From NCBI RefSeq assembly GCF_035083965.1, contig NC_089738.1, positions 9,946,734 through 10,010,733 of the forward strand: a stretch of DNA of 64,000 nt, in the 5' to 3' direction. The DNA comes from Branchiostoma lanceolatum. Lineage: Eukaryota; Chordata; Leptocardii; Amphioxiformes; Branchiostomatidae. Position 1 is the first letter of the stretch; each line of letters starts with the position of its first letter. The position numbers and the translations under genes were made by a program. Positions 572 to 56,018 of the stretch are shown here, piece by piece. The notes under the pieces are model-generated. The model was given only the letters and a program-made list of their open reading frames with translations. It was not told the DNA's origin and did no database searches.

Positions 572-2043
572 ATACCTTGATACCTTGATACTGTGTCCAG
601 GAAAGTAGGCTCCGCCTGTTATGTCCTGATCTTGACTTCGCTCTCATGTGACATACTTTTGGCAATCCCAGTGTTTGTCAAGTCTGGATTTAAACTGGTT
701 TACACTATCCGCTGAAACCACTGACTCAGGTAGGGCGTTCCAGCTCGACACGGTTCTAACACTGAAGACCTGACTCCTCGCCCTAGTCTTGGCTAGGGGA
801 ACTTGTAATTTAAGACTGTGACCTCTAGTGACTGATTGCTCGACTGGAGCAAAGAAACTTTGTACCGGGATTCTATCGATTCCATTCATGATCTTAAAAA
901 CTTGTATCATATCACCTCTCAGTCTCCTATACTCCAGGGATGGGAGTTTGAGTCGCTGAAGTCTAGTGCTATAAGGAAGCTCTCTTAGACTAAGTTAGAG
1001 AAGGGACCATTTTTGTGGCCCTTCTCTGGACCTTTTCTAACTCTTGCTTGCCCGCCTTATAGTGTGGTCCCCAGATTACATTTCCGTATTCCAGGTGTGG
1101 CCTCACCATTGTTTTAAAGAGAATTGGCAAAGTTTGTTCATCCAAGTTGGCAAAGGACTTTTTAATCAACCCCAGCATCTGATTTCCCTTGTTCTTCGCT
1201 TGTGCCGTATGCGTATGGAATTTGAGGTGATTGTCCACTGTCACTCCCAGGTCTTTCTCTGCCGTGGTCTCCTCCAATACCTGATCCCCTAAGGTGTAAA
1301 TCTGCCTGTTGTTGTTGTTCCCCATGTGCAACACTTTACACTTGCCCACGTTGAAGGGCAACTGCCAGGACGCAGACCAGTCCCTCAAAGCTTCTAAGTC
1401 CTTCTGTAAGTTGACCCGACCTTTGTTGTCCTTCACACCCTGGTAGAGTTTACTGTCGTCGGCAAATATTCTGACCGTGCTACTGACAGCCTCTGGTAGG
1501 TCATTAATGTATACTACAAACAATACCGGGCCCAGTACACTCCCCTGCGGGATGCCACTCCTCACAGGGGTCCATGAGGAACTAGTTCCATTCAGCACCA
1601 CCCTCTGTTTCCTTGATGCTAGGAAGTCTTTCACCCAGTTGTACAGGTCTCCTTTCACACCGTACGACCCCAGCTTACATAAGAGACGCTGATGGGGAAC
1701 GGCGTCAAAGGCTTTCCTGAAATCCAAGTAGATTGCGTCAATAGCTTCCCCCTTTTCCAGTAGTTGGGTCCACTCCTCCAGTACCACCAGAAGCTGCGTC
1801 ATGCAAGATCTCCCTGGTACAAAGCCATGTTGCGCGTCTGTGAAGTGGTTTCCAGCAGACATATGCCCCACCAGTGCATCCCGGATGATGGCCTCCATCG
1901 TCTTCCCAACCACCGAAGTCAGGCTCACCGGCCTGTAGTTTCCTGCTTGGGTTCTAGCTCCCTTTTTATGGATTGGCGTTATGTGCGCCACCTTCCATTC
2001 CTCAGGCAGCTTGGCTGACTTTAGTGACTTGTTGAATAATGTA
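572..2043 (-). mobile_element. 5'-truncated CR1-like non-LTR retrotransposon (LINE)
   Basis: Reading on the minus strand, this segment enters in the middle of a reverse transcriptase and runs to the element's 3' end. The 3' terminus carries short direct repeats of an 8-bp unit (ataccttg on the plus strand at 572-579 and 580-587, then a partial third). Such short tandem tails are typical of CR1-clade LINEs, which use their 3' tail for target-primed insertion. The 5' edge near 2043 cuts the coding region, as expected for incomplete reverse transcription. I could not identify a target-site duplication. Assignment to the CR1 group rather than another LINE clade is inferred from the protein and the tail. 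Confidence 0.85.
644..2043 (-). pseudogene. Broken LINE reverse transcriptase ORF2 (C-terminal half)
   Basis: The encoded protein is the catalytic and C-terminal part of a LINE reverse transcriptase. Visible motifs are NYRPVSLTSVVGK (palm entry), YLDFRKAFDAV with the motif A aspartate, SGIPQGSVLGP (motif B) and FADDSKLY (motif C with both catalytic aspartates). The thumb region follows, then a C-terminal block ending near SRLDKHW. The frame is open from the truncated 5' edge down to about 990. It then hits a stop and resumes in another frame around 985-910, so a small indel separates the thumb from the C-terminal 88 residues. The endonuclease domain is absent. The copy cannot make an intact ORF2 protein, although the palm motifs themselves look unmutated. 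Confidence 0.9.
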
Positions 2044-3537
2044 TACTAACTTACCGTTCCGATAGCACCATCGCATACATGTTTATGATTTTAGCATCAT
2101 GCATATCCATAAAATTATTCGAAGAAATTGTATCAAGATTCCATCAACTTTGACTTTCATGACTCGAGTCAAAATGTCTACAATACAATGGATAACCGTA
2201 TTAAAAAAATACGAGAAATTGTGCAAAATCATATTCTTGCCTTTCTCTCCTTTTATCACCAAGAAACGTATTCCTACATAATAAATTGCTCAAGGTTTCC
2301 GCTTTGTTTTTTGTTGTCGTCTAGAAAGGCCGGGTTTTGGGACGCCAAAATCACCCTTTCTAAACCCTCCCGAACACCAACGACGCGTTTAAGTGTATCC
2401 CTAGTCTTTCCTCCTTACCTCTCTTTGTTTTGGATCTTGTGGATAGACGTCTGGAGGTCCTAATCTTGGTCTTTTTAACGGGCGGTACTCGTAACAAACA
2501 GTCGCGCCCGCCATGACGGGCTGACGGTGATGACGACCTCACGCCTCCCTGGAGGACCACCGGCACAATACACTAAAAATAGGGATGTTTTTAATACTTT
2601 TCAAATCATAAATAATTCTTTTGTTTTTAGATATGTGATAGTTGTATTCAACTTAAAAAAGTATATTCTAAGCTATATTATATACTACCATACGATATTT
2701 GAGAAACTTAGGGCATTTGAGATGAAAAAATATTCCCTATTTGATGATTGGTTTCACCCATATTGACGTAAAACGTGGACAAGCTAGCAACACTCAGGTT
2801 CAGTGTTGCTCTTTAAACTTTTGTTTCTGTCTCTTTGACGGTCTTCATTTTCTTCTTATGGGTCTAAAAGAAGGACTTGGACCTCCTACGATATCAGGTA
2901 ACTGTATTGAACACACTGTTTTGCGTAACAGTCTCATGACATGTAAAGAAAATATTTATTTTGGCAACGTTTATACAACAGTTATTTTGAAATTATGCTG
3001 AGAACTAATTATAAAGAGAGTGAGAATCTGAATATCTATGCCTCTCTGCAAAATGTAGTTTTTACCTCCGCCATGCTTGAAAAGTATGATTTAACTTTGC
3101 GATATCGCTTTTATTAATTAGTCGCATAGTACAAAACAGACATTTTTGTGATGGTACCAAGAACCATAAAAACATATCGAAATTTGCAAGAATTGCAGTA
3201 GATATCGAGTCCCTTTCAAAAATGAGAAGCAAATACCTTGACAATGTATGTTTTATATATAGCATGGCCTTCAAGTGATCCAGACACACGTACAATTTTT
3301 TTTTTTTTTTTTTCTTTTCAAGCTTAAAGTTACATTAGGCCTACAGCTATTTCAAGGTGTAACCTTTTCAAAGTTGTCTAACAACATTCATGGCTTTCTG
3401 ACCTATCGAATTCTCTATAATTTACTAGTACGATATTTCTGTATATGCCCTCCAGTACTTTTTGAACCACCGGTATTTGAGGTCAGATGATGCATCATTA
3501 AATTCGAGACTGCGTGAAAAGAGCGACTTAAGCGAAG
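2044..3537. other. Intergenic stretch upstream of SLC35A5
   Basis: No gene is recognised here. The segment 2310-2570 is richer in GC than its surroundings and is open in several frames on both strands, but no protein family is evident; it may be an old repeat. A poly(T) run lies at 3297-3313. The last 50 bases before 3538 presumably hold the 5' UTR of the SLC35A5-like gene. No TATA box was seen. Confidence 0.4.
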
Positions 3538-6104
3538 ATGAAGGGTTTCCTGGCACAACTCCGACCGCAGCGTGATACGGTCACTACCGTTCTGCTAGGA
3601 GCGTGGTTCATTACGCTTGGAGTGCTGAAGATTCTACTCATGAAGTTCTCAGAGAATGACAGTGAGTATACATTTTGAGATGTAACTATCCTCAAACACT
3701 CCACTTAATGTCTTATCCATGGGACGTCCCTAACCAAAGCTTGGCACTCATTTCCACTTCAGTGAAGTGAGGAAAGTCGTGTTAGGTGCCATTTCCAAGG
3801 GGACAACATCATTGACTTTGTAAAAGTTTGTATTAACAAAGAAACAAACAAAAGTTGAATAGCAGCAAGTCCTTAAACTAGCTAGCTACAGTCTAACTTG
3901 GACTAAACCCAAGCTAAACTGAGTCAAGGGACTGAGGAATACTAGTAATGGTTGGTGACTGGCCGTGATGGTTGCTCCAGACAAGTTGATAATGTAGAAT
4001 TGGACTTGACAGTTTTATTGTGGCTGGTTTATGGCTGGTGGTGATTAATTGTGCCAGGTGGTTGGCTGGCCAGGTTTTTATTTCATTTTTTATCAATTTT
4101 TGGTGTGGTCCCTTCAGTGAGCTGAGTAACTGATTTCCAGGAGCCCTAAAGTTTTAAGATTGGTAACGTTCTTGAGGAAATTGTGTGCAAAGATGTCGTA
4201 CATGTACATTAACACAATCTCAATGTCATACATGTTGTTATTTCAGATGGAGGGTATGACTATTTGCCAGTGACTGTGAATGTGTGTGCAGAGCTGCTGA
4301 AGCTATTGGTATGTGGGACCATAGCAATATGGGTCAAGTACACAGGTGAGCAAGACTGGTGACTTTGATATTTAAAAAAAATCATTCCTATAGTTCTATT
4401 ATTTTACCAATGCTTTGTGCTTTCAATAATGAGAAGTGACTACTAACAGTAGTTTTTTGAAAAAAATTACCTATTTGCCCTGAAACAATTTAAATTCCTG
4501 CCCCCCTCCCCCTCCATTTTCAGAGGAAGGTTCGTTTAAGGACAAGTTTAGGATCACCAGACATGACATGTTGGGACTGCTGCGCTGGTCAGTACCAGGT
4601 CTGCTGTACTTCATGGACAACCTCCTACAGTTCTACATCATCACATTCTTCCATCCTGTGAGTGCCCATCAACTCACTAACAACAAAAATTTGACAGTCT
4701 AAAAGTACATTTGTAAGGTATTTAGCAGTGACTGTCATCCTCCATAAAGGTAAAGCATATTCTATTGTACCTTCACTGCCCAATTTTCGTTTTGCTTACT
4801 AGTAGTAATGTCCATTTATATCTATGATTGTGTTAAGTTAGGCTGTTTTGTTTGTTGTCAATAGATACTAAGTTTGTAATTTTTTGTTTGTTTTGTTTTG
4901 CAGGCAATGGCAGTTCTGCTATCCAACTTTGTCATCATCACCACATCTCTGCTTTTCCGACTAGTATTGAAGTGAGTACATGTTGTATTGCTGAATGTCA
5001 CTGTTTTGAAGAAAAATTGCTACTATTATATACATAACCGAAGCTATAGGTACTAATTTTTCCAAGTGAAGTGAAGAAATTTATGTTTAGTGCCTTTTTC
5101 CCATGGGCACAACATCGAGGCATGTCGGGATTTGAACCTCTGTGTTCATAGCCAAACACCCTAACCATTACACCACATGATGTCATACCTGTATGGTAAG
5201 GTTATGGATACTTTTCATCTTTTTCTTTTTAACTAATTACAATTATGTCTTTTTATCTTACAGGAGGGTTCTTACATCCATTCAGTGGGCATCCTTGGCT
5301 GTCCTGTTCCTGGCTATTGTGTCCCTGTCCAGTCAAAGTCACCATGTAGGCCCAGAGTCCAGCACCGTCCAGAAACCCCACGCTATCGACCACGTCGTCG
5401 TGGCGAGTCTAAACCACCACGACCAGATCTGCATGGCCGGACAGACCCTCATCAACAACGAAACGCACACCGACCACGGTCTCACCTCGAACTTGCCATT
5501 TTCGCTGAACATGGGCCACATTTTTGTGATAGTGCAATGTTTCATCGCCTCTTCTGCTAACATTTACAACGAGAAAATCTTCAAGGAGGGAAACGGCATG
5601 CAAGAAAGCATTTTCGTCCAGAACTGCAAACTGTACATGTTTGGTGTTCTATTTAACGCCATCACCCCCCTGATTATACCAAGTTACAGGAGGAGGCTAT
5701 TTGAATGTGGCTTCTTCTATGGGCACAATAGTTACTCTGTCGCGCTACTCTTTGACGTCACATTATTCGGACTCACGGTGTCCATCATTTTGAAATTCAG
5801 GGATAACATGTTTCACGTGTTGGGCGCACAGGTCACAACGGTGATCGTAATCACGTCGTCCATTTACCTCTTCCATTTCGTACCGACACTGCAGTTCTTC
5901 CTGACTGCGCCAATTGTCCTCCTGGCGGTTTTCATCTACAATGCAGCCAGGGTGAAAAATACGAAACCGAAGCACGGCACCTCGTTGGTAAGAAGTCATG
6001 ATCAGGAAGAGAGGAGCAGGCCAGAAGGAATGGAGCTTCTCCCCAGACAGCGGCACAACAGTGCCAGCAAAACTTCAGATGAAGAAACAGAAGAAGAACT
6101 CTGA
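3538..6104 (+). CDS. SLC35A5: SLC35A5-type nucleotide-sugar transporter
   Basis: This is a multi-pass Golgi/ER membrane protein of the nucleotide-sugar transporter family (SLC35A group, probable UDP-sugar carrier). The five coding exons are 3538-3661, 4247-4345, 4524-4657, 4904-4971 and 5264-6104. All introns are GT/AG, and the phases join into a 421-residue protein (human about 424). Residues 16-36 form the first membrane helix. Motifs shared with vertebrate SLC35A5 include YDYLPVTVNVCAELLKL, MAVLLSNFVIITTSLLFR, SIQWASLAVLF, ANIYNEKIFKEGN, GFFYGHNSYSVALLF and DNMFHVLGAQVTTVI. The C-terminus is cytosolic and acidic (SDEETEEEL). The ATG at 3538 is chosen because it begins the hydrophobic N-terminus directly and the frame then continues through exon 2. 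Family assignment is strong. Substrate specificity is not visible in the sequence. Confidence 0.95.
3743..3826 (-). repeat. SINE fragment in SLC35A5 intron 1
   Basis: The stretch with paired aagtga motifs, a 'gtgcc' block and 'ggacaacatc' matches the non-tRNA tail of the tRNA-derived SINE at 5057-5186 in the same gene. The tRNA-like head is missing, so this is a truncated copy. The boundaries are approximate. Confidence 0.5.
5057..5186 (-). repeat. tRNA-derived SINE in SLC35A5 intron 4
   Basis: On the minus strand this segment carries an RNA polymerase III A box (TGGTGTAATGG) and a B box (GGTTCAAATCC) at tRNA-like spacing. An unrelated tail containing 'gttgtgcccatggg' follows. That arrangement is typical of a tRNA-derived SINE. 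It lies wholly inside the 4972-5263 intron. The D- and T-arm pairing is imperfect, so a functional tRNA gene is unlikely. Confidence 0.7.
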
Positions 6105-8565: not shown

Positions 8566-11500
8566 TCACTTCTTCTTCTTCTTTCCCTTCTTCCCAGACT
8601 TCTTTTTGCCCTTCTTCCCTTTCTTGCCCTTCTTGTAAGGTCCGAGCCCCTTGCGAACCATGACTCCCCTCCACCAGGCTTGGAGCTGTAGAAGACAGAA
8701 GTTGTCATGTTAATGCGGGATAAAACTTTGCAATAATCCTGTCTATCGTGACACAAAATTTTGTAATAATCCTGTACAAACTATCTTGGTCAACCCAAGA
8801 CCACTTTTCCAATATCTTGTTACAAAATACTAGTACATTTTCATCCATTTTTGAATAATATAAAGCAACTGCAAGCTTGATTCTACAGATTATATATGAA
8901 TATCTCCCTCCATGCATGATATATTTTACCATGTTTCCCCTCCTAAAAAGAGATCTCACTTATTCAACATATCCAGGGGTGCCTCGTATGAATTCCGTAA
9001 AATTTTTATGAATACTTAGGCACCCCTTATATTGGCAATAATACACTAAAAAGTTCATATTCAAGTTGTTGAAAATCACAAAGTGAACCCTTCATAACAG
9101 CCAAAAAATATATGTTGTAACTGTCCAAGGTTGAAAATGGTTTACTCAGATTCAAATGGAAGCATAATAACAGTTTCAGCACCACAGACAGGCACAGACT
9201 GATTCAGTAGTTATACTAACCTTGGTGGCACACTGCAGCTCGATAGCCTCCTGCTCTGCCTTTCTCCTGGCCTTCTCTTTCTCAATCCTGTCTTCAACAA
9301 CAACCTGCTCATATTCACCATACTGTGGGAGAGAAAGAAGTTGTTTTGTGATTTTGATCATATAAAATATAACCAAAGACCATTTTCCCACTAGCGCATG
9401 CCAGAAACTCCTTCACACAAGCAAACCACTAGGTAGTTAATGATATTAACTGCTAATATCAATACATACAATTTATCAATTCAGTTGCTAGTTACTGGCA
9501 AACAGCATACCACTATCTTGAAAATGTTTAACAAATGATTCAGCATGTCAAACGAAGGATTGGAAAGCAAAAACTACAAGCCAAGTAATGAATGCAAGTA
9601 CAAGCTGATTGAAGTGTAAGTAGCTGAACAAGTTTATCAACTGACCATTTGGGAAAGCTAAAAACTAGCTAACTCTAAGTTGACATGGTGCACAGTCTAG
9701 CTAACTTACGAGTTTGGTTAGCTCCTGTAGCCTGGCTAGGTCCTGTGCCTTGGATGCCTTCAGTACATCCAGCTCATGCTGCTTCGCATCCACATCTTTG
9801 TCATACTTCTCCATCCAATACTCCACCTTTTCCTCAAGTTCCTGCAAAATTATTTCAAAAGGGAAATATTTATGTCAACAATTGTTCACATTTTAGGCCT
9901 TTATAATTTCAGGAAATTGAAAAATCTTGTGGCGAAATTGATGTTATATTTGCTTACCCTTTGATGTGTTTTGAGGAAAGATTCAATTTCTCCGTTCACT
10001 CTCACTTCCTCATCGATCTTTACCTTGAGCGCCTGTGAAAAAAAATGGTACAAATTGTAAGTAAACCACAGTATATACATGTATGACACAAGACAGCTGG
10101 AACTTGTCTCCTGTATGCACCTGTATCTGTATAGCCCGTACAGCCAGCCTTCAACATAACGCACGCGGCAGCAGCTGGTTATATTACACTGAACGACCTG
10201 TCACACCTAACCTTCGCATGTCCAGCTGCAAGCGTTGTTTAAATCTATCTAATGAGGATGCCCTTCCTGTACTTGGTCGCAACGAGTTCTACTCTACATC
10301 ATAGTTACTCTGACAGTTAGGACATTCAAATTTGTGGAAATTGTTACACTTGACCTTCTCGGTGCTTCCTAGCTCTGTAACCAATTGGGAATTGGGTACC
10401 AAACGGCTACTTCGGTGTGCTAAAGCTAAGAAAAGATTGCAAACCTCAAGTTCTTCTCGGAGGGCCTGTTCGGACATGCTGCAGTGCTTCTGTGTCTGGA
10501 AGACTTGAACCTCAGTGTTCTTCTTGACGTACTTGCCCTCCATGTTGGTCTTGGCCTTCATCTCCTGAAGCTGGTCCTTTAGATGTGCAATCATCTCATT
10601 CCGGTTCTGTGGAAGGAAAAATTGTGTCTTAGTCTTTCATCTTAGCATGTCATTGAAATGTCTTCTAGGCATTAAGCTATATAGGGTTTAAGAGAATAAC
10701 AAATCTCATCAAAAAGATAAAAAATCTAATGAAAAACAGATAGTACATGTTTTGCAAATTTGTCACAATTAAGGCTAGGTCAAAGAAAACAAAATTACAT
10801 ATACTGTACTTGAGAATACTACATGAAAGGTTCTTAGTTTCAAATACATGTACTGTGAATCTTGAAATGTGTGCAGCGGTTTTATTTTTGCAGTTCTCCC
10901 AGTGAACTTTCTGCCATAATTTCATGACAATGCAAATATGCGGTTCCAGTGTATTGCTACAGTATTGTTTCAAGTACGTACTTGAAACACCACGAAAACC
11001 TCATTTCCTTCTACCATGAAATTAAGTCTGCCCCCCAAAGAATGAACTTACAGTACTTCATTCTCATAATCACATATGATTCAAAACGTATGACTTTCTG
11101 ACCTGTATCTCCACTTCCTTCTCCTTGCGGACCTCCAGTTTCAGCCTCTGTAGCTGTTTGATCCTCTTGCGCCCCTCCTCCTCACGGAGGATGGTCTGTT
11201 GTAGGTTTGCCTTCTTCTCGCGCTCAGACAGCACCGATTGTAGAAGGGACAGGAACGTCCCTGATACGGCTAGCTCCGACTGCGCTTCCACCATCACTGA
11301 CTCTACAAATGCCCTGTAGTGAAGGATAATAAATTCATGAGCTTTCAAACACTAAGATATAGCATATAGCACTGGAATTGAAAGAACTCATTTTTGAAGT
11401 CCAGCAACAACTATACTTCAAACATTGTCAAGCAAGAATGTGACTATACAACATGCTAAACAGATTTACATGTAGATTTCTAGCAAAAATGTAGCTTGCT

Positions 11501-13058
11501 GATTATTTAAGTTAGGGCCAATCATGCAGTATTGAGGTCAACCAGGTAAGCTCTGAATGGCTCTTGGAAGCTTTATTATTGCCTGTTGTTTGACTGAACT
11601 AGATATGTACAATCCAAAAAATACCAGAAGGTGCCCCCCTCCCCCATTCACAAACACCCACCTGTCTGCCTGAATCTTCTCCAGGTTGTCAGATGTCAGC
11701 GGACTCTGCTTGAGACTGCGGCTGAAGAACTGGTTGCTTCCCTTCAGACCACCTGATACGGCTGTGATGTCCTGGTCCAGCTGCATCAAGCGGTTTGTCT
11801 TGCCGATCGCGCCGGAGAATTTTGTGTCCTGCCGAGCCGTCATCAGCTGGGAGAACTGCTGCTCCAACTGGCGCTGGCTGTCCACAATCCTGCCGATTTC
11901 ATCACCAACGATCTGTATCAGAAAAAAAAAATCATTCAACCGATGAGGATCTAAATGTATTACCTGGATAGTTGTACAGCGTTATAAACTTGTTTTTCCG
12001 AGAACAGAGAGTTGAATTCATTGTCACCAAGGATTTAGGGCCATTCTTACTAGATGTTTCAGAACAATGTACATGTAACATTGGGAAAGGGCTGGGACAA
12101 TTTATTTCATATCAACTACATTTCTAACTATCACACCGCATTTAAACAGAGAGTGCACTGAATTTTAATCGATTGTGATGTTACATGAATTCTTTAATAA
12201 CTGATGTGACTATCTTAGAGGTTTTGTGGAACACTGTAAAAAGATTTTACATGTTCAGGTTTTCTACCAACCTCATCTTCATCCTCACTGTCACACTCCT
12301 TGTGGCACAAATAATCAAACAAGGCATTTAGGTGAAAATTGCATGAAGAAGAATTGTGTATCATGACTGTATGTTTATTTTTTCATATGAACCAAGGGTT
12401 AAAACATCCTTGTCTGCACTATGAGATTTAAGAGAAAACATGTTGTAAAGCAGATATCAGATATGTCACAACATGATTGCCCAGGGTTGGCAGAGCCTGC
12501 ATTTTGTTAATCAACTCAAACTTTTCTCTGTAGGTCCTGGAAATAGTCTTTTCCGTAAGGCACTAAGGCAGCCTATTTTGATTTCCCATTATTTGTTGGG
12601 AAAGCCATCTTATTAATGTAATTCGTACAGGAAGGCTGACCAAACTTTTCGTAATTGTCTCCCTTGATTTTAATAGCGTAATACAAAGGGGGTACCTGAC
12701 AATGCTTAATGCTGAATTTAGAAGAACCAGGTTCTTCTAAATTCAGCGTAAAGCATTCTTCTTCTTCTTCCGCTAATGTCCATCGGCCGACAAGTCGGCC
12801 ATTACTGACATGTCTCGGGTCAAAGGTTGAGTGCAGCATCTAGACGGAGCCGGTCACCCTGGAACCTTAAAGTAAGACATGTTTTATCATATCACAGTAT
12901 GAAGGATTCCATCATACCTCGTCAGCATCAGGTCTCCCTTCGTACGACACAGGCATGATTTTCCCCAGCACGACCAGCTGGTCCACACAGTCCTCCAGTA
13001 CTGTGGCCACCTGCAGCACGTCCGCAGGCGTGGACAGACCCATGGAGTCCGGGTCCAT
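8566..13058 (-). CDS. IQCG: IQCG / DRC9, nexin-dynein regulatory complex subunit
   Basis: IQCG (DRC9) is an IQ-motif coiled-coil protein of the nexin-dynein regulatory complex, which controls dynein in motile cilia and flagella. Coding exons in transcript order are 12918-13058, 11662-11912, 11103-11313, 10445-10606, 9958-10032, 9710-9841, 9221-9322 and 8566-8685. All introns are GT/AG and the frame is continuous for 397 residues (human about 443). Matches to human IQCG include [11 protein letters not shown] near the N-terminus, [52 protein letters not shown] and the IQ segment [16 protein letters not shown] lysine/glycine-rich tail follows. The ATG at 13056-13058 follows an in-frame TGA in genomic sequence and a TTTTGAG acceptor. 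A noncoding first exon with a GTAAGT donor lies at about 13556-13620. A 27-nt optional exon is listed separately. Confidence 0.95.
10851..11055. mobile_element. MITE of the TACTGTAAATGCA family (IQCG intron)
   Basis: The ends are TACTGTGAAT and an inverted TTACAGTA. Between them are the family's 'gcggttttat', 'ccacga' and 'accatgaaatta' blocks. The element sits wholly inside the IQCG intron between 10607 and 11102. Related copies are at 14429, 20393, 41046 and 52928. Confidence 0.65.
12272..12298 (-). other. Candidate 27-nt acidic microexon of IQCG
   Basis: Between IQCG coding exons 1 and 2, the minus strand shows a pyrimidine-rich tract ending in CACAAG, then 27 bases encoding ECDSEDEDE, then a GTTGGT donor. 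Both neighbouring junctions are phase 0, so inclusion adds nine residues without disturbing the frame. The donor is weak, and no homologous peptide is known to me. Its use as an exon is an inference. Confidence 0.4.
12701..12757. repeat. Near-perfect 57-bp palindrome in an IQCG intron
   Basis: The core 12711-12728 (gctgaatttagaagaacc) is exactly complementary to 12730-12747, with a one-base centre. The flanks aatgctt/aagcatt extend the pairing imperfectly. This is probably a minimal MITE end pair. A second small palindrome (ggccgac-aa-gtcggcc) follows at about 12784. Confidence 0.7.
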
Positions 13059-13555
13059 GGCGAGGTGTTCCACTCAAAATCACTTATGTATTAACAAGAG
13101 TGTTCAAATAGTTCTCAGGGTTCCTTGTGGTGCAGTCTATCCTCTTCCCATCTGGAATTTTCTGTAAAACATATAAAAACATTGCTTCGTTTAGTTCATT
13201 ATAAAACTTTTATTTTCAAATCAACAAATAAAAAACTCAAACTTCTCAGAAATCACAATCTCAAAAAGCATTACGAATGCAAAGTGTCCATGTCAATTCT
13301 GATAGCTTGATAGGTGAACTAATCTATGGCATGATTTCATTGATGTCCTAATCGAGAGTTGTACAGTATATATGATACTCAAGATCAAGACGACATTAAA
13401 ATCTACACTGCTACCCTCCCCCTTTTAGTTTTACCTTTACCTTTACCTTTAAAGAAAACCGTTCGAATACAGCTCACGAAAGGACTCTTTGCTTTTAGTA
13501 ATGATGCATATGATTAAAGATGATATACTGGAGCAGTTGGTAAGGCCAAACTTAC

Positions 13556-13730
13556 CTAGTAGACGCTGAAAATGCAACAAAACACTGAAAATCAGACAGT
13601 CCTTCTCAACAACACTCTGTACACTGTCTGTTTACGTTGGTTCCCCACGCAACGTCATGGCGGATGTGACGTCAAGATATGTCCCACAATCCTTCCTACT
13701 TCCTTTTCGCCATTTTGCTTTCTGGAGAAG
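13556..13730. promoter_or_regulatory. Shared head-to-head promoter of IQCG and RPL35A
   Basis: A minus-strand GTAAGT donor at 13551-13555 closes a putative noncoding IQCG exon. A plus-strand GTACGA donor at 13731 closes a short noncoding RPL35A exon that starts in a pyrimidine tract (cttccttttc) resembling a 5'TOP. Between them lie TGTTTAC at 13629-13635 (forkhead core), GTTCCCCACGCAAC at 13640-13653 (X-box-like, imperfect), ATGGCGG at 13657-13663 (YY1-like) and a perfect CRE, TGACGTCA, at 13667-13674. Forkhead plus RFX sites are typical of motile-cilia genes, and CRE/YY1/5'TOP sites of ribosomal protein genes. The two start sites appear to be about 100 bp apart. Transcription start positions are inferred. 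Confidence 0.7.
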
Positions 13731-14305
13731 GTACGAAAATTGCAATATACTGATGTTTTTTACCGATATTTGTACGTTATATATCCACTGTTGTAAAACT
13801 ATGGTTCCCAAATCAACTCTAAATATCTTAACTCTACTTGAATACATTCTTTGTCTCCCGATGGCCACTGTAAAAGTGAGATTTAGACTGGATTTTTAAC
13901 GAAGTCGTGACATTACCTGATCGTCTGGCCTCTGGTCGAGCCAACAAAATTCATGGTGCAAGATGTCTCTTTATCATGCAAGCTAATAAACCTTTTCTAG
14001 TTTATTCGAAGGGACTAAGAGCGATCGTTTAGTTATAATGAGGTCACCTTGTTATACCATTGATATTTTTGACACAATTCTTAACTTTTTACAAGCATCA
14101 AGTATAAATCTAGTGACTTGGGTATGTACTTGGGGAGGGGTAGGCTTCCAAAAATCATGATTTATTTATTTGCAAATTCCATAATTTGTATGTCTACTGT
14201 TTGACATAATACTATGACATATTATATTTCAACATATCACTAGATTCTTGATCAACATTGCCTTTCCATGCTGGTTTCAGATCAGAAGGCGGCAGACTAG
14301 CCACC

Positions 14306-16101
14306 ATGCCTGGAAGGTAAGTTACTGTAAATCCATTTACTTTGGCTGTCGTTTTCTTCAGTCGTGAAATATAGTTTTCGCTGTATTTTGAAAGTCACGG
14401 TTTAAACAATTTTTTTGCACTGTATAATTACTGTAAATGCATTCAAGTTCGCGTGGTTTTTATTTTGCGCTGAGGCGAAAATGGAGTGTTCGCGGTGGTT
14501 TTTAAGTTTGTGGCAGTGCTATAGTTACATACTGCAACAGTATTGCACCAAAATGTTCCCAGTAAAATGGTTACAGCGAAAACTGCAAACATAAAACCAC
14601 CGCGAACAATTCTGCATTTAGAGTATTGTACAAAACACATATTTTTATGATGTTATGATTTCAAGTTAATGGGTCGCTGCGAAAATAAAATCACAGCAAA
14701 CATAAGAAAATCTACAGTAGCTGCTCATGTTCATTAGTATGAATGATGTACTATTAACTGTGTTAAAAATACTTTATTTACATGTTCATGGCATCATAAT
14801 TCAATTTGTAATTGTTAAGTTGTCTAGCCACGTGACAATAAGAAGTTCCTTGTCAGTTTACCAACGTTTTCTTTTAAATCCCAGGTTATACAGCAAAGCC
14901 ATCTTCACTGGCTACAAGCGTGGTCTCCGTAACCAGCGGGAGCACACTGCCCTTCTGAGAATCGAGGGGGTGACTTCTCGCAAGGACACTGAGTTCTACT
15001 TGGGCAAGAGGTGTGCCTACGTCTACAAGGCAAAGAAGTAAGTCATGTTCTCATAAGAAATATGAAAGATCTCTGGTAACAAAATGATAAGAGATGTGTA
15101 CATTGCCTTAAATGTCATGAATTTGCCTAGCCTGAGTGTCATCCTGTTTCAGGTAGATCCTGGAACTGAAACAGGATGACACTCAGGCTAGAATTTGCCG
15201 GCCAGCCCATATTTTACCATTTTTTTAAAACCATACTTCCCAATTTTGAATTGTTTATAATGATAACAGGTTATGGGAAAGCAATTATATTTATAAAGAA
15301 AACTTAACATGCAACATGCTCCAACTGAAGTTGCCATGTAGTAAAAAGGCACATATTGTACGATGCTACGAAGCGACTATCAATGCAGGTTGCTACGTTT
15401 CAGCTTGTATGTTACAATTCAGTTCAACTAATGTGTAAGAAGTGTAGGTTACGCCAAAAGTCAGTTACTCAGACAGCAATGTAGGTTGATTTCTTCTTAT
15501 TTTTTACTTGATTGATATAAACACAAGCATGGATTTTTTTTGTGATGAGTGTATTTTTTGTCCTTTAAACAGGAAGACAGCTACACCTGGTGGAGCACCA
15601 AGCAAGATCCGTGTCATCTGGGGCAAGGTCACCCGTGCCCATGGTAACAGTGGAGGTGTGAGGGCCAAGTTCCGCAAAAATCTGCCAGCAAAGGCCATGG
15701 GACACCGTATCCGAGTGGTAATTACATTTGTGTCTTGTTATGGCTAGTGATAGTGAGAGCTAGCTTTCTTTTTGCACACAAATTCATCATTTTAAAGAAC
15801 AGTATTTCAGCCCTGAAAAGAAGTAGACTTTTGTTCCAGGAGTCATGACAAAACTTAATTGCAGAGAAATTTCTAGGTGGAAAACATTGCTAAGCTCGTT
15901 TTTTTTACATACATTTTTTTTATGGATTGATGAACAATTTGCAAAGAAATGAAACTGTTACCATGAAGTATGTTACTGTCATTTACTTGTAAACCAGATA
16001 ATTGATTAGGTACAGAAGTGATGTGTGGATTTACATATTGATTGACATGCTGACAAGACGTTTCTTTTCTGTTTCAGATGATGTACCCATCAAGAGTGTA
16101 G
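14306..16101 (+). CDS. RPL35A: 60S ribosomal protein L35a (eL33)
   Basis: eL33 is a structural protein of the cytosolic large ribosomal subunit. Coding exons are 14306-14316, 14885-15037, 15573-15717 and 16078-16101, all with GT/AG introns. Together they give exactly 110 residues, the length of human RPL35A. The start is the ATG in a strong context (gccaccATGcc) three codons before the first intron. Diagnostic blocks are [46 protein letters not shown] and [12 protein letters not shown], with the terminal MMYPSRV on its own short exon. A noncoding exon with a 5'TOP-like start lies at about 13700-13730, so growth-linked translational control is likely. Introns 1 and 2 carry MITEs. I looked for C/D-box snoRNAs in introns 2 and 3 and found none. 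Confidence 0.97.
14429..14625. mobile_element. MITE of the TACTGTAAATGCA family (RPL35A intron 1)
   Basis: The left end is TACTGTAAATGCATTC and the right end is the inverted 'gcatttagagta'. The inner blocks 'ttcgcggtggttttt' and 'aaaaccaccgcgaa' are inverted repeats of each other. The element lies in the intron between the three-codon first coding exon and exon 2. Confidence 0.75.
15128..15190. mobile_element. 63-bp palindromic MITE with 9-bp target duplication (RPL35A intron 2)
   Basis: The terminal inverted repeats begin TAGCCTGAGTGTCATCCTG and pair almost end to end, leaving a loop of about 12 bases. The flanks are identical 9-mers, gaatttgcc at 15119-15127 and at 15191-15199, a clear target-site duplication. 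A longer copy of the same family is at 21102-21178. Confidence 0.9.
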
Positions 16102-17941: not shown

Positions 17942-18054
17942 TAATCTCCAAGCAGATCCACACCGGGCGCGAAAATCGTATATGCTAGCCAGAGAAGGTC
18001 CAGTCAGCCAGAGAGGGCGATTTTCGCGCCCGGTGTGGATCTGCTTGGAGATTA
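17942..18054. mobile_element. 113-bp palindromic MITE with 9-bp target duplication
   Basis: Perfect terminal inverted repeats of about 36 bp begin TAATCTCCAAGCAGATCC and end inward at 'gcgcgaaaatcg'. The unique centre is about 40 bp. The element is flanked by identical 9-mers, gactaccaa at 17933-17941 and 18055-18063. The inner CTCCAAGCAGA motif recurs at the ends of the elements at 28819 and 29872. Confidence 0.9.
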
Positions 18055-18498
18055 GACTACCAAGGCAAGTTATGATATCGGTAAAAGTAAGAGCTTCTTA
18101 TGACATTTGCATACAATAAAATGTCCTTTTCCATGAGTCTGAAAGGTTCGAGTAAATCTCCGAGTAACAGTGAAGGCTGATAAAAATTTGACCAATTAGA
18201 CTCAATAGCATTTCGCAACCTTGGACAAAGCAACCAGCATTCAAATTTCGCGCCACGTCGTGTATGACGTCATCTGAACGAGGTTTTAAAGCGAGGCTTA
18301 CTGATCTCGTGTCCAAGATTTTCAGTAAACATATTCCTTACAAAAGTGCTGTGAATATCACTTACAGAACTGTAGCTTTAACTTGACATCATCATCATAT
18401 TTTACCATTTTGTATGAATATTTTGATAAATCACCGCAGACTAAAACTTATGGTATAGTGTTCTGGGCACGAGAGTGAAAGCGTGGTGGGAGGAAGCC

Positions 18499-18509
18499 AA
18501 GATGGCGGC
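18499..18509 (+). promoter_or_regulatory. YY1-type site in the JMJD6 promoter
   Basis: AAGATGGCGGC is a perfect match to the extended YY1 consensus. It lies 113 bases upstream of the JMJD6 start codon in a GC-richer, TATA-less stretch. In such promoters this motif often overlaps the first transcribed bases. Confidence 0.6.
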
Positions 18510-25422: not shown

Positions 25423-28400
25423 GCCAAAAATAATTACTCAAGCAACTGGATAAAGTTTTGAAACAGTCAGACGTTTCAGACAGCATCCACTGTCTTTCTT
25501 CAGTGACTAACGATAGGACTGAGAACACCAGGTTTTATACCAAAACTCTGAATGGGTATGTTAATGAGGTTAAGACAATTTAGGATGTCTTGAAGTAGTC
25601 TTTAAAAGAAGATTAATTCAAGACAAAGTTATGTGCCAATAGTTCAATTAGCTACTGTTGATTTTAGTACAGTAACTAAATGTTGTTCGTCCGGGGGTGG
25701 GGGGTGGTGGGCAGTACATTATCCCAAGTGCCTGAAAGTTCAACGCGTAGACCCCCTTTCCTGTTGAGGGCGGGGTTGTACATCCTCTCATATCATAGTA
25801 TTGCTTCTCTAATTCCCCGTTCGAACCAGCGTTCTTCACGATCTAGGATGTCCGTGGATTCGAGATTGAATGAGTGTCCCTGGTTGTTAGTCACTGACGA
25901 AAGACAGTGGATGCTGTCTGAAACGTCTGACTGTTTCAAAACTTTATCCAGTTGCTTGAGTAATTATTTTTGGCGTATCTTACTACCTGGATGTCTAACT
26001 TTCATCAACGTATTAAGGATCAATATGGCAAGCTTTGCCTAAGCTCAGTGAGGGATCTGGAGAACACCAGCAGGAAGATTGCAGACTACCGGAACCATCT
26101 ACGCTTCAGTTTACGGTGCCTCAAGGTAAGTGTCACTCCTGTCAGTTTGCGCCTAAAAACTTCCATCAGAGGCTTCAATCATTGTCAACGCCGAAAGGAA
26201 GCTACTAAACGAGAGGGTAAGGCAGATCAACTACAAACTGGACGGTCTCAACGCGAGAAAATCAAACCTTGTACAACTACTAAGGGAACAGCTGTCAGAA
26301 GAGACCTTTGCTGAAACCGACAACTTCATAACACATGGGCAGCTCTCTCAACACGAGAAGGGGAAAGTCAGACAGAAAAACACATTTGAACGGCTACAAC
26401 ATAAAGAAGTGTATAGTGCGGCAGATAGGGACCAAAATTGGAGATCTAGCAGTTCCAAACAAAAAACCGCAACACCAAGTAGAACAGACGAGAGGTGGGT
26501 CAAGAACCTGAGTAGTCACACTCTTACAGAACCAGAGAAATCCCTACTTTCCAAAAGACTAAATTTCGCAGTAGCCCCTAACAGGATTCCTAACATTGAC
26601 ATTGTCACAGAAACTGAGTCGGCGATTCGTCGTGCCCGCATACCTTACAGACAGGCTGAAGCCTTACGCACCAAAATAGCTACCACTCTGAAAGTCGCTA
26701 AACCCCCTCCTAGCAACATCACCCGGGAAGAACAAACCGCGCTCAAGGATTTGGCCACTAATCAAGACATTTTGATCCTACCTGCGGACAAGGGCAGGTG
26801 CACAGTAATCTTCGACAGGGAACAGTACGACAAGAAGGTTCAAGACCTATTGAGAGACAAAGACATCTACATGCCCTTGAAAAGGGATCCCACAAGCAAA
26901 TTCAAAAAGGCAATCCATGACGTTCTCAAGAGATTGGAAGAGAAAGATAAAGTTCTGGATCATCATGTCACTTATCTAAGGCTTAATCCCACTACAGAAC
27001 AACCCCCCTCATTCTACGGCCTTCCCAAAATCCACAAACCAGGCGTCCCTCTACGACCCATAGTCTCCAGTATAGGATCAGTCACTTACAACCTAGCAAG
27101 TCATCTGGCTCAGATCTTGGGACCATTAGTGGGGAAGTCTCAGCATCACGTACAGAATAGTGCAGAGTTTGTCCACAAAATCAAAGACATCAATGTAGCA
27201 GAAGATGAAATCATCACTTCATATGATGTGTGCTCGCTTTTCACTTGCATAACCCCCAAGGAGGCTGTCGCAGTAGTTAGGGAAGCCTTGGAGGCCGACG
27301 ACACCCTTGCAGATAGAACCAACCTTTCCGTTAAACACATATGTGAACTACTTTGCCTAGGGTGCACATACTTCACGTACAAACAACAGTTTTTCCAGCA
27401 AGTGCACGGCTGTTCTATGGGATCACCAGTTTCACCCATTGTAGTGAACCTGTACATGGAGAAGTTTGAGAACAAAGCCCTCAGTACTTTCAATGGCCCT
27501 CCCCCAGCAAACTGGTTTCGCTATCATACGGTAGATGACACTTGGTGTAGGCTAAAAGAGAGAGTAGCGGACGACTTCTTTGACCATATAAACCAGGTAG
27601 ATGACAACATCAAGTTCACACAGGAGTCGTGTCAAAACAACAGACTCCCCTTGGATGGCAACCTTCAGTTCGAAGTGTACAGGAAACCGACCCACACTGA
27701 TCAATATCTGGCCTTTGATTCCCATCACCCTTTGGAACACTGCAAACTAGCAGTGATCAAAACTCTCTTCCATCGGGCAGACAACGTCATCACCTCAGAC
27801 GAAGCGAAAACAGACGAACACAGGCATCTCCGTGCGGCCTTAGCCAAGTGTGGCTACCAAAATTGGACCTCAACAAAGCCCTCAAACCTTCTGACCAGTC
27901 TAAGAAAACACTCAAGTGCAAACCATTGACCAACAGAAGCAAGGCCAACATTACCATTCCCTACGTCCAAGGAGTATCGGAAAAACTCAGAAGAATCTTC
28001 CAACTTTTTTTAAAACTTCAACATTGCCACTAACTTCAAACCTCACTCAACTCTCAGGCAGAAATTGGTCCATCCAAAAGACAGGCCGGAAAAAGGCATC
28101 AAAGCCAATGTCATCTACAAACTGAAATGTGAGGAACCGAACTGAAATAACATGTACGTTGGGGAGACAAGTCGACCACTAAAAGAAAGGTACAAGGAAC
28201 ATTGCAGAAAGAGCGCTAACCGCTATTCCTCTGCCATTTACCACCATCTAAAACACAACCAGGGACACTCATTCAATCTCGAATCCACAGACATCCTAGA
28301 TCGTGAAGAACGCTGGTTCGAACGGGGAATTAGAGAAGCAATATATGAGAGGATGTACAACCCCGCCCTCAACAGGAAAGGGGGTCTACGCGTTGAACTT

Positions 28401-28887: not shown

Positions 28888-30140
28888 TAATCTCGTTCCC
28901 AGTCAATGACGTCCAACGATACCCTGGGCTCGAGATCTTGGTGAAGGGCATCACGCAGCCAAAAATTAACATAATTTAACAGGTTTTACATCATCTTTTA
29001 AAGTAGATACATGATATGAGTATTATTTAATTACATAGATTTATATGTAGGTATAAATTTTGCATATGCAATCAAAATGTCACCGTGCGCAAAATATTGA
29101 TGAGATTTACATTTTGTCGCCCTGAAAAAGAGGTGTGCACAGTTCGTCTGCTGCGCGGGCAGGTCGAAGACTGGACGTGAGTTCGCCGGTAAGGTCTCAA
29201 CTAAACTAGCTCGTAGTCTCTTGAACGAGCTTTTACAGACTTCTTATAGAGTATGAAGCGTGTTACTGACGCCCGGGTAACTTAAGACACGTCACTTGTG
29301 GATTGTTTGCGGAAGGAATGAGCTAAAATTTCACGTTTAGACAACGCAGAATGTAGAAGGGGGAGGGGGGCGAACTGTCAGTGATGACATTACTTTGTTT
29401 TGTCTTCAAAAGTAAGCTGAGGAGCTTTATCAAAAGTGGCATTTTATGACATGGAATACTTGCCTTGAAATCTATGTCACTAGTAGTAGTACTATATTAA
29501 ATTTATTTGACGGCATGTATTATATCGATCATATTGCTCTGTTTAAAGAGACAGCATAAGCCCGCTGCGCTATGACATTTAATTTTGTCGAAAGATGCAC
29601 AGGACAACATCCCTGTTTGGAAAAATGGGACAAACGATGTTACAAACCAAACTCCCTCCCTACACTTACATTCCTATTTTGCCATGTAACACGCCTATCT
29701 CCGTCTCGCAAGATTCAGGGACAGGTATGGTGACATATTGGGGTCAAAATTAGCATATGAAAACCTTACCCTAATTTAAGCAAGATAAGCTGTAACAGGT
29801 TTATGACTCTGTTTATCACGACCTGGACTAGTCTTCCCTGTGTAAAAAGTTGCACATTTCATCTCACAACTTACTCTCCAAGCAGAGGTTAGTCTCTGGC
29901 TAATGTTTTGGACTTGGACGTCTTAATAGGTCGTTATCGGTTATCAGGCTTTCTATTTTGTCAGGTTTTTCAGACAATTAGACAGAAAAAAAACCTGACA
30001 AATTAGAAAGCCCAATAAAAACGTCTGAAAAAGACGTCTTAAACAAGCATACTTTACCTTTGCTCGGAGAGTACGTTGTAACTAGAAAATGTTTACCACA
30101 CACTGCAAGCTGATTAAGCCAACTTACTTGTGTTTTACAG
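28888..30140 (+). other. GLS 5' flank and probable 5' UTR intron
   Basis: An acceptor (tgttttacag) at 30131-30140 precedes the first coding exon of the glutaminase gene, so a noncoding exon should lie upstream. A candidate ends in the GTAAGG donor at 29190, within a GC-richer patch (29150-29200). The interval also holds a 201-bp MITE (29872-30072). I saw no other gene. Confidence 0.45.
29872..30072. mobile_element. 201-bp MITE of the TACTCTCCAAGCAGAGG family with nested palindrome
   Basis: The terminal repeats are TACTCTCCAAGCAGAGG and CCTTTGCTCGGAGAGTA. Inside is a second inverted repeat (gctttctattttgtcagg against cctgacaaattagaaagc) around 29948-30012. The element ends 68 bases before the acceptor of the glutaminase coding exon. 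Confidence 0.75.
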
Positions 30141-30150
30141 ATTGAGAACC

Positions 30151-33100
30151 ATGCATCGCCTGTGGCCAGCCCTGTACCATGGCGCACAACGACAGTATAG
30201 ATTCTTCCCAGTGTGTCAGCAGATCACCTGCCTCATGTCAAGTAAAGCAGGTGATCCTACGAAGCCATCTGACCATCTGACAAAAAATGAGACTGAAAAT
30301 GGAGAAGATACGTCTACGTCTGTGCCCCCTAGTCGACCAAACGCAATCTCCTCCCTCCCTCAGTTGGAAGATTGGGTCTTCCGTCTGCTGTCCAATCAAC
30401 AGGGTCGCGTTCCCGTCTCGGAGTTCCATAAGGCGCTACGAGAGGTGGGTCTGTGGGAAAACGATCCCCGCTTGAGAGAAACCATGGCCAATCTCCGAAA
30501 GCTACAAGAGTCCCACAGCTCTTTTCTAGACCGCGAGACCTTCAGCAAGTGTATAACGGAGAATATCGTACTTATTGGCCGAGCTTTCCAGTCCAAGTTT
30601 GTTATACCAAAGTTTAGTGAGTTCTCCAGCTATATTGACAAAATGTACTGGACCTGTGTCTCGCAGAAGAAAGGTAAAGTAGCGGATTATATTCCGCAGC
30701 TTGCACGTTTCAGCCCCGATTTGTGGGGCGTGGCATTGTGCACCGTAGATGGTCAACGACATTCAATAGGAGACAGCGACAAACCGTTCTGTCTGCAGTC
30801 GTGCGTCAAGCCTCTGGTGTACGCAACCGCGGTCAGTGAGCTCGGGGACAAAACTGTCCACAAATATGTCGGAACTGAGCCAAGCGGGAGGTCGTTCAAC
30901 GAGATTGCTTTGAACAAGTACAACCAGCCATTCAACCCCATGATCAACTCAGGTGCCATCCTGCTGTGTTCTCTCATCAAGCCCGAGGAACATCAGTCAG
31001 ACAGGTTTGACCACATCCTGAAGGTGCTGAAAGCAGCCGCAGGTGACGACTTTGTGGGCTTTAGCAACACCACTTTCCTGTCAGAGAAAGCCACCTCCTA
31101 TCGCAACTTTGCCTTAGCTTACTACTTAAAGGAGAACCAGTGCTTCCCACCAAAGACAGACCTCATGGAAGCTCTGGATCTATACCTCCAGCACTGCTCA
31201 GTTGACATAACGTGCGAGTCCGGCGCAATCATAGCGGCTACGCTAGCGAACGGAGGAGTGTGCCCGCTAACGGGAGAGCTGGTGTTCCATCCGGATGCGG
31301 TCCAGCACACGCTGTCGCTCATGCACTCCTGCGGAATGTACGACTACTCAGGACAGTTCGCGTTCCAAGTCGGTCTCCCCGCGAAGTCTGGAGTTAGCGG
31401 TGGGATCATGTTGGTCGTGCCCAGTGTTATGGGCATCATGTGTTGGAGCCCACCGCTAGATAGTACAGGGAACAGTGTCCGAGGTCTGCACTTCTGCAAG
31501 GAACTGGTCTCAACCTTCAACTTTCACCACTACGACAATCTCAAGTACAAGTCTAAGAAACTGGATCCAAGACGGCACAGGTTAGTATCTAGTTAATGGA
31601 CACATTAACCAACAGGTTTCTTAGAGGTAAATATAAAATCAGTAATTATTTATCAGTAAAATCAGTAGTATTTTATAATTTATTGTACATCTCAGCTAAA
31701 TTTGAGGGATTGTATACATGTAAAATTATTATGCTGACTGCATATCAGTTATCACAATAGAATTTTTGACAATGACACATGTTCATCAATATTTTTAAAT
31801 AAATAAGAAGTCTGATAATCTGATGATGACAATGTCAGATGCACTTTTGATATTTGATTATATAAAGCCTTTGAAAGCTTCATAAGACTAAATCCATGTT
31901 ATCTTGGGAATAGATACTAGTAGTCTCTTAACAAATTTGTCCTTTCAAGATGGAGACAGAATTTAGGAGACTTATTTTGATACGGTTAAAGTTTGAAACT
32001 AGATCTAGAGGTCACAAAGTTTCATCTCTATAAGTTATAGTATAAGATATCTTACAAAAATTGTCCCCTGTTGTTAATGATAGACTGGCTTGGTGATGTT
32101 TTTTCCTTGTACTAATCATTGAACACTGGTCACTGTAAATTTGGAAAGACACTGGCTGACTGGCAATTAGGGAAATCCAGTCAACTTAGACCACATGTGA
32201 TTATGTTTCATATGCAACTTGTAATCTAGAGTATTCCCTCAAGGACATAAATATTGGTCCTACATAAGATTAAAAAGGCTTCATTTAAGTTGATTTTGCA
32301 AATCTGGAGTGTCTTTCCAATTTTAAAGTTATCAGAATGAATATGATGTGTATGTGTGTGTGCATTTTTGGAATTTAGCCTATACACTATGAGAGGAAGA
32401 TCGTTCAGGTAAGTAAGAATTATTGATGCCTTCTAGAGGAAACCCTTTTCTCTTGTATTTTTCCTTTTTGTTTGCTTTTTTATTGTTCTTTTATTTCTTT
32501 TGGGTATTGTTTTCTTTCCCTTAAATTTCTTTCTTACAGATGTAATAAAGTTTATTCAAATCATTTCAAGTAAAAACAGCAGAGTCCTCAAGTACTAGTA
32601 ATGATTTAATTTGGACATTGGAGTCAGTGTATAATTGTGCGGATTGCTTGACTGTTCATATGTGTTGTACTGCACACACATTTTAGCTTATATTATATGG
32701 ATTGTATGTGACAGAAAAAGTCATATTTTGGAAAGCAATATACATTTGTACTTTAATTCAAAGAATAATCATATTCATAATGTTTGCTTTGTATTTTGAT
32801 TTGAACTGCAGTACCTACAGATTTTCTCATTGAAACAACTTTTCTTAAAAGTTTTAGCATCAAGCTATTATATACAGTTTCTTTTTATTTGAGCACAGTA
32901 ACTTCTAGACTGTTCAATGTATTATAGTAACCTGGTGAATAACTGAATAACAAAGTTCTTTGTTAACAATCAAGGAAGTGATATCAGCTGATGTTTTGAT
33001 GACTGTCATCTTCAGGGCAATAGTGACTGGTACACTTTGCTCTGCAGCTAGGTGTCACTGCTAACAATGCGGTACCAAACGTACAGTATTATCATAGTTA

Positions 33101-53922: not shown

Positions 53923-56018
53923 ATAACGAAAAATTGAAACGGTCGATTACGCCTTGCAGAGAGCTTGCAGAGACACAGACGGACCAACACGCCCTCTAAC
54001 AATTCATAACTCCCTTGGGAGTAAAGTAACAACTGTTTGATTCCCAGGGTGCACTTTCTGGCGTTGCCTCCTCTCACCGGAGACCATCTGTAGAACAGTT
54101 TCACCTGGGAACGTTTTCACCCGGCGGAAACGATATTGGACCTGCTTAATTAAAGTGTCTTCTCAACCTCATCTGTCTCTGGTGTCTGTAGATGATTGCA
54201 ATCATCAGTCTTCCTCTTCCCCCAGCCTGGCCGGGCATCAATACGAGACAGTGGGATCGATACGAGGCGGCGCGACTGTGGCATACCGCCCACGTTTGTA
54301 CCTTTCATTTCACTGATTTTTCGAAAAAGACGCCGATGTGTCTTGCTCAGAGTCAACGGAACATAAGAATTTTTTTACAATATTTGTTTACAAGTAATAC
54401 AAAATCCATCTAAAAAATACAGAATTTAATTCAATTATCTGCGCTTAAGGTTCTGATTACCGTAGTTGATATATATCTTAATTAGTAGGTATGGTAATGA
54501 GGGGCGAAACAAAAGGGACCATGGATCGAGTTTTATATGAAAATGTTTTCCACTTAGTTCTAGTAAGGTTAGGTTTTCTCTTGGCTTTTTGTATTTTAGA
54601 TTTCTAGTCTATGTTCGGGAGAATAATCAAAGCTTGTTGCAACAAAATCAAAGCTTGTTGCAACAATTATTATTTTGGATTCGCTTGAAGTTAATTTGAC
54701 TTCAATAGGTTGGTTGATTCTACTATGACCTTGATAATACGCTTGTCTTGCTTGCTGAATACTTGTATGTTGATACGTTGTTCTATGTATATAAACATGG
54801 TGAGAATTGATCACCATTCTTTCACCGGCGCCATTTTGAAATTGCATAAATGGATGGCCTAAAGACGCCGGAAGTAATGGGCACCATTCCTCATACTGTA
54901 CCTGACGGAAACCGTTGGAACTCAGTACGGAAACACGTTTGATGGAACACAATCAATCGTTCGCAGCAAACCTGCTGCATCGTCAGTTAGTCTATATCTT
55001 AATACTGTATGTCTTCCATTTTGATGTCCTGATATTGCATTTCATCTTTTAAAAATGATTGCGAGAATTGCATTCTAGCTCTATGTTGTCTGTAGGAAAC
55101 TTAAGGTTGAAATTCGGTCAAATGTTCCTTTTTCTAGTAGGTACCTGGAGAAAATGGGGGTGGTTGCATTCACATGACTGTGACGTCAGTATTGTCCGCC
55201 ATGTTGGGTGGTTAAACTAGTAAATTGCCAGGTACATTCGAATTTGTGGATGCAATTACAGTGACGCAGTTATGACGGCATGCACATTCAAGTTTTTATT
55301 TCTTACTCTTTTAGGTTTTACTAACCGACATTGCGACTGTGGCTTCATGTGCAAATTATGAGAATGACAAAAAGGAATATTTTCATGCATTGGTCGTCAG
55401 ACGGTGCGATGTTATATTTCCCATGTAGTTCTCTAACATAGACGTGATCAATTTTTCATCGGATCTAGAATGAGATCCGGATCAGGGATTGTGCACCGGA
55501 CATTTGAGGGGAAACAGTGTCGTCTGCAAGATCCTCAGACTGATACTCACTGCGCATGCTTAGATCAGCCTGTCAGACCATTGGAATCACCTGCTTTCAG
55601 ACAAAGGAATAACCAAAGGTGCTGACTTCTAAGACCTAGACCTCATATCAAAGAATACGACGATTCGTGGGAATGCCTGTCGTTGATATATGTATGTATT
55701 CCTGACAGCTAGTGGCAAGTTACGACTTTTTAGTTGTGTGACACAGAATATGTTTAACGAAGAAAAATACGGGCTACAGGTGTCTCAAAATTGATTTATT
55801 TCGTAATCCATTTTCTCGGTGACACAAATGAATTCCATTAACCGTAGAAGATGAATGATATGTAAGGCTCCCTCCCGGCAACATTGAGTTTGTGCCGTGC
55901 CCTCAAATGACTCTAAACATGATATTGCCCAAGAGATACTCGTCAAATCTCGTCTTACTTGGCTAAGTTTCAGCCCAACTAATCAAAGAAAAACAACCTT
56001 CGAAGGGCAAACTAAGGG

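Follow-up and report, generated by a model that had tools for sequence, protein, structure and literature searches.

A candidate compact bidirectional promoter between the ciliary gene IQCG and the ribosomal protein gene RPL35A in Branchiostoma lanceolatum

Does the short gap between a motile-cilium gene and a ribosomal protein gene in the amphioxus B. lanceolatum serve as a single promoter for both, and how far back does the pairing of the two genes reach? We addressed this question for positions 13556-13730 of a 64,000-nucleotide stretch of DNA, referred to throughout as the window, in which an initial annotation had proposed a compact bidirectional promoter joining IQCG and RPL35A. A shared promoter at this position would provide a testable case of one open region serving both constant and cell-type-specific expression. 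Human RPL35A is linked to Diamond-Blackfan anaemia, and the locus may bear on the interpretation of regulatory variants near that gene.

We rebuilt coding exon models on both strands, which place IQCG/DRC9 (minus strand) and RPL35A (plus strand) as divergent neighbours with their 5′ ends facing each other. Both models match solved homologues, bearing out the head-to-head arrangement that had been proposed. The 397-amino-acid IQCG model aligns with PDB chains of DRC9 (dynein regulatory complex protein 9), and among the 8 distinct sequences matched the best two have E-values of 3.8e-96 and 8.2e-90. The RPL35A model represents a complete eL33 protein of 110 amino acids, matched by Pfam family PF01247 and by 52 distinct PDB sequences at E ≤ 0.001 (best E = 3e-60). 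The start codons of IQCG (13058) and RPL35A (14306) are separated by 1,248 bp. Coordinates of the gene models and of the elements between them are collected in Table 1.

A number of other elements accompany the two genes. The IQCG leader carries a four-codon upstream ORF (13137-13151, minus strand, ATG at 13151) ahead of the main start codon, and a nucleotide-sugar transporter exon (5181-6101, plus strand, PF04142), SLC35A5-like by eye, lies tail-to-tail with IQCG. Within RPL35A, the intron separating exons 3 and 4 contains a palindromic insert (15127-15192) with sub-threshold matches to the miRNA families mir-3927 (33.3 bits, cutoff 90) and mir-1910 (19.6 bits, cutoff 70), which is probably a small transposon remnant.

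To place the two transcription starts we relied on initiator and splice signals. YYC+1TTTYY is the polypyrimidine initiator consensus, and TCCTTTTC is its sole plus-strand match in 13556-13760, there being 49 plus-strand matches across the window as a whole; this match predicts a start for RPL35A at C13703 and backs the 5′TOP-like tract initially noted on the RPL35A side. For IQCG, a stop closes the frame ahead of the start codon and the exon holding that codon begins at an acceptor (13161), so that a noncoding first exon is expected. The 5′ limit given for this exon in Table 1 (13628) is assumed, the start being placed anywhere from 13628 to 13556, and no convincing IQCG initiator was found, a loose minus-strand pattern matching only at 13586 and 13573 and also at 13667. 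From C13703 to the donor of the IQCG first exon is a distance of 147 bp, and the two starts are thus predicted to lie 75-147 bp apart if that of IQCG falls between 13628 and 13556. The start spacing of about 100 bp in the initial annotation is compatible with these gene models, in which both first exons are predicted.

Table 1 Features of the IQCG-RPL35A locus (positions refer to the window)
Feature	Position	Strand	Remarks
IQCG/DRC9, coding part	8566..13161	-	397 aa, start codon 13058; PDB DRC9 match and Pfam IQ motif
IQCG exons (eight)	13161-12918, 11912-11662, 11313-11103, 10606-10445, 10032-9958, 9841-9710, 9322-9221, 8685-8566	-	
IQCG optional ninth exon, 27 nt	12298-12272	-	left out of the 397-aa model
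IQCG noncoding first exon, putative	13556..13628	-	3′ end at donor TAG/GTAAGT (13556)
Forkhead-type site TGTTTAC	13629..13635	+	
X-box-like (RFX) site GTTCCCCACGCAAC	13640..13653	+	2/12 mismatches to GTTGCC-N2-GGCAAC
YY1-type site ATGGCGG	13657..13663	+	
Perfect CRE TGACGTCA	13667..13674	+	
TATA-like A/T-rich stretch AGATAT	13675..13680	+	23-28 bp upstream of predicted RPL35A start; weak, direct reading
RPL35A polypyrimidine (TCT) initiator TCCTTTTC	13701-13708	+	YYC+1TTTYY match; predicted start C13703, 5′TOP-like CTTTTC
RPL35A noncoding exon 1, predicted, 28 nt	13703..13730	+	initiator and donor AAG/GTACG
Second YY1-type site GCCATTTTG	13709..13717	+	just downstream of predicted RPL35A start; direct reading
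RPL35A exons 2-5 (four coding exons)	14281-14316, 14885-15037, 15573-15717, 16078-16101 (to stop)	+	

Four motifs had been read in the gap, namely TGTTTAC, an imperfect X-box, ATGGCGG and a CRE, and all of them (TGTTTAC at 13629, GTTCCCCACGCAAC at 13640, ATGGCGG at 13657 and TGACGTCA at 13667) are present at exactly the positions first reported. We take ATGGCGG to be a site for YY1 and TGACGTCA a site for CREB/ATF. The second YY1-type site, GCCATTTTG, was absent from the initial annotation and differs by one mismatch from the YY1-bound GCCATCTTG of lancelet ProtoRAG. The CpG observed/expected ratio reaches 1.03 in 13620-13705 compared with 0.68 for the whole window.

We gauged the rarity of these motifs using 12,000 dinucleotide shuffles of the 86-bp core (13620-13705), an interval that, like the motifs themselves, was picked after sight of the sequence. 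The X-box palindrome is GTTGCC-N1-3-GGCAAC, with RYYNYYN1-3RRNRAC as the degenerate X-box consensus, and a shuffled site was scored as X-box-like at ≤ 2/12 mismatches to the palindrome. With the post hoc choice borne in mind, an X-box-like site was reached in 83 shuffles (< 1 %), TGTTTAC in 255 (2.1 %), the CRE in 58 and ATGGCGG in 86 (each < 1 %). The X-box-like site and TGTTTAC occurred jointly in 2 of the 12,000 shuffles and the CRE with ATGGCGG in 0 of 12,000, and on these joint counts a chance origin of the four motifs together is rejected. Across the window, 12 of 12,783 overlapping 86-bp segments contained both the X-box-like site and TGTTTAC, and all 12 overlap the 13620-13705 locus.

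The looser definitions are far less discriminating. Neither strand of 13620-13705 matches the degenerate consensus exactly, which rules out GTTCCCCACGCAAC as a strict X-box; what stands of the imperfect X-box proposed at 13640-13653 is its position and its two mismatches in 12 to the palindrome. Two control sets of 2,000 sequences each, shuffles and random segments of the window, contain the degenerate consensus with one mismatch allowed in 67 % and 70 % of cases, respectively, and a broad forkhead consensus in 21 % and 28 %. The one-mismatch X-box form is thus expected by chance, and this, together with the failure of the strict consensus and the prediction of the IQCG first exon from one splice donor, a point against a shared promoter, would suit an arrangement in which the gap is the promoter of RPL35A with chance forkhead- and RFX-like matches and IQCG is transcribed from elsewhere, for example near exon 2 (~13161-13550). 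However, among the 8 X-box-like sites in the window (≤ 2 mismatches, spacers 0-3, including 13640) the nearest others are at 7204 and 16348, and with the frame closed upstream the acceptor at 13161, if used, demands an upstream noncoding exon. We regard a separate IQCG promoter of this kind as unlikely.

The reading that we favour, and hold to be probable, is that 13556-13730 is a compact bidirectional promoter under shared YY1/CREB-ATF and RFX/FOXJ1 control, with the gene pair descending from a chordate ancestor. The gap would be short enough for no nucleosome to lie between the two starts, and YY1 together with CREB/ATF would keep one region open from which RPL35A could be transcribed constitutively, starting at C13703. 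Through the same open region, RFX and FOXJ1 would increase IQCG expression in sperm and ciliated cells. RPL35A would in this way be sustained by a housekeeping block (YY1, CRE and TCT initiator) and IQCG raised by a ciliary block (the X-box-like and forkhead-type sites), a division of motifs between the two genes that we infer. Forkhead and RFX input to IQCG is a reasonable expectation, because the zebrafish FIGs (Foxj1-induced genes) include IQCG, which is required there for motile cilia function. The zebrafish data are reported in PMC4199137, and a co-expression network of the airway also lists IQCG under ciliary GO sets (PMC6825243). No paper joining IQCG to an X-box and RFX in cilia turned up in the literature search.

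The same anatomy is accepted by a further explanation, in which two independent core promoters abut, the YY1/CRE/TCT block belonging to RPL35A and the X-box/forkhead block to IQCG, without shared regulation, and the pair survives because breakage would damage RPL35A. The motifs are indeed split in space, with ciliary-type sites at 13629-13653 on the IQCG side and housekeeping-type sites at 13657-13717 on the RPL35A side. Amphioxus has many such pairs, and housekeeping functions are over-represented among them (PMC6292497). Only 3 bp separate the two blocks (13653 to 13657), however, making a single open region likely. We consider independent abutting promoters quite possible, though not probable, and our confidence in the favoured reading and in its alternatives is not mutually exclusive. 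As far as the initial interpretation is concerned, the head-to-head pair, the predicted compact gap, motifs in excess of chance and the linkage in human, rat and chicken speak for it, and the strict X-box consensus speaks against it.

The age of the linkage was assessed from published gene lists. It had been suggested that the human genes are also neighbours on opposite strands and that the pairing has been kept for more than 500 My. We assume that IQCG and RPL35A lie on opposite strands in human, rat and chicken; human IQCG presumably has a further first exon, lying more distally beside LMLN, and the arrangement there may be head-to-head only in part. RPL35A and IQCG stand side by side, flanked by LRCH3 and LMLN, in two human lists that differ in the order of the pair (PMC4776409, PMC3760796), which supports the human neighbourhood, and the accessible portion of PMC4763861 lists the two genes apart and is silent on adjacency. 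On a rat promoter array one 681-bp region (chr11:69550989-69551670) is assigned to both Iqcg and Rpl35a; since the coverage of the array extends from ~3.9 kb upstream of each start to 1 kb downstream, this common region shows closeness and not a shared promoter (PMC3440412). In chicken, a SNP on chr9 is annotated with IQCG, LOC121111469 and RPL35A (PMC11779831).

Taken from these amniote tables and the window, the linkage may be very old, and retention for more than 500 My may likewise hold, its basis being the human, rat and chicken listings and the lancelet window. The comparison covers amniotes and the lancelet window with no intermediate lineage, a sampling that would accommodate independent origins of the linkage on the two sides. 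Against such origins, the human, rat and chicken listings name the two genes together and the pair stands head-to-head in the window, and 372 putatively ancestral chordate bidirectional promoters have been reported, although the majority were lost in vertebrates (PMC6292497); we judge independent origins very unlikely. The accessible text of the literature naming both genes yielded no discussion of a conserved IQCG-RPL35A promoter, and that of a sponge microsynteny paper (PMC5429095) nothing on the pair. Pattern searches gave no match for IQCG in viral contigs, and for RPL35A gave 7 matches in viral contigs and 58 in prokaryotic genome contigs, none of them confirmed by tblastn; neither search says anything on animals.

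The least ordinary feature of the window is the YY1-CRE composite. ATGGCG followed after 4-9 bp by TGACGTNA occurs at four sites in the 64 kb, at 13657 (+), 43289 (+), 51359 (+) and 55202 (-), while the opposite order, TGACGTNA before ATGGCG with spacers of 2-12, is found 0 times in the window. With spacers of 2-12 the composite, a pattern defined after sight, averaged 0.01 occurrences in 200 window shuffles with a maximum of 1. Exact ATGGCGG falls within 20 bp of TGACGTCA at 3 of the 5 CREs in the window compared with none in 200 shuffles, a surprise that is overstated since the shuffled windows are poorer in both CRE (mean 0.9 vs 5) and ATGGCGG (2.74 vs 9). The copies at 43284-43322 and 55170-55207 are alike in 32 of 39 alignment columns (82 %, counted by hand). 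It is improbable, in our estimation, that the YY1-CRE block of the gap is itself a copy of a dispersed composite, a mobile or repeatedly recruited module supplying bidirectional starts.

A longer CCAAY-ATGGCG-spacer-CRE-like composite can be read at 43284-43322 (+), 51354-51376 (+) and 55170-55207 (-), in two copies with GTCATGTGA following. The copy at 43289 appears by eye to sit just inside an intron, next to a donor-like sequence, and the ORFs adjoining it have no Pfam family match. A perfect CRE at 18265 and AAGATGGCGGC (ATGGCGG at 18502) lie 237 bp apart (18265-18508), upstream of the coding start of a JMJD6-like gene, which we named from reading the protein, its Cupin_8 match being below the Pfam cutoff. 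Upstream of the same gene is a perfect inverted repeat of 37 nt, its arms separated by 39 nt (17942-18054), and part of one arm recurs near 19150.

Lancelet YY1 binds GCCATCTTG of the transposon ProtoRAG, both terminal elements of which were bidirectional in reporter assays (PMC7481187). YY1 repressed transcription in the same study, a point against the favoured reading of the gap, and work from 1995 cited there concerns repression of c-fos by YY1 via direct interaction with ATF/CREB (PMC7481187).

Elsewhere in the window, a long uninterrupted ORF (30118-31596, plus strand) encodes Glutaminase and EF-hand_14 domains, both above their Pfam cutoffs, and could represent a glutaminase gene that lacks introns or arose by retrocopying. 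Retroelement-like reverse-transcriptase ORFs are located at 990-2045 (minus strand; RVT_1, E = 1.9e-34) and, more weakly, at 26157-27929 (plus strand; E = 6e-05, below the curated cutoff). No Rfam match at gathering score and no tRNA by ARAGORN were obtained in the 64-kb window.

Three known kinds of promoter invite comparison with the IQCG-RPL35A gap. Like the ciliary X-box promoters controlled by RFX and FOXJ1, it has an X-box-like and a forkhead-type site close to where an axonemal gene is expected to start, but the X-box-like site fails the strict consensus. With the TCT promoters of animal ribosomal protein genes it shares the YYC+1TTTYY initiator match, a short noncoding exon 1 and a YY1-type site just downstream of the predicted start, and differs in that RPL35A faces a divergent ciliary gene. 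The third kind is amphioxus bidirectional promoters mapped by CAGE, in which 3,950 of 15,884 neighbouring protein-coding genes (25 %) are found (PMC6292497), a commonness that the initial annotation left out of account. These promoters are most common among ubiquitous promoters and some have 0 nucleosomes between their starts, with which the predicted spacing of 75-147 bp is in keeping; YY1 was scored as an amphioxus promoter motif, and RFX motifs appear in an amphioxus-zebrafish comparison of adult tissues (PMC6292497). The IQCG-RPL35A gap resembles them in its head-to-head coding pair, short predicted gap, expected ubiquitous partner and YY1-type motifs, and is plausibly a member, possibly an ancient one, of this known class, set apart by its pairing of a housekeeping gene with a motile-cilium gene.
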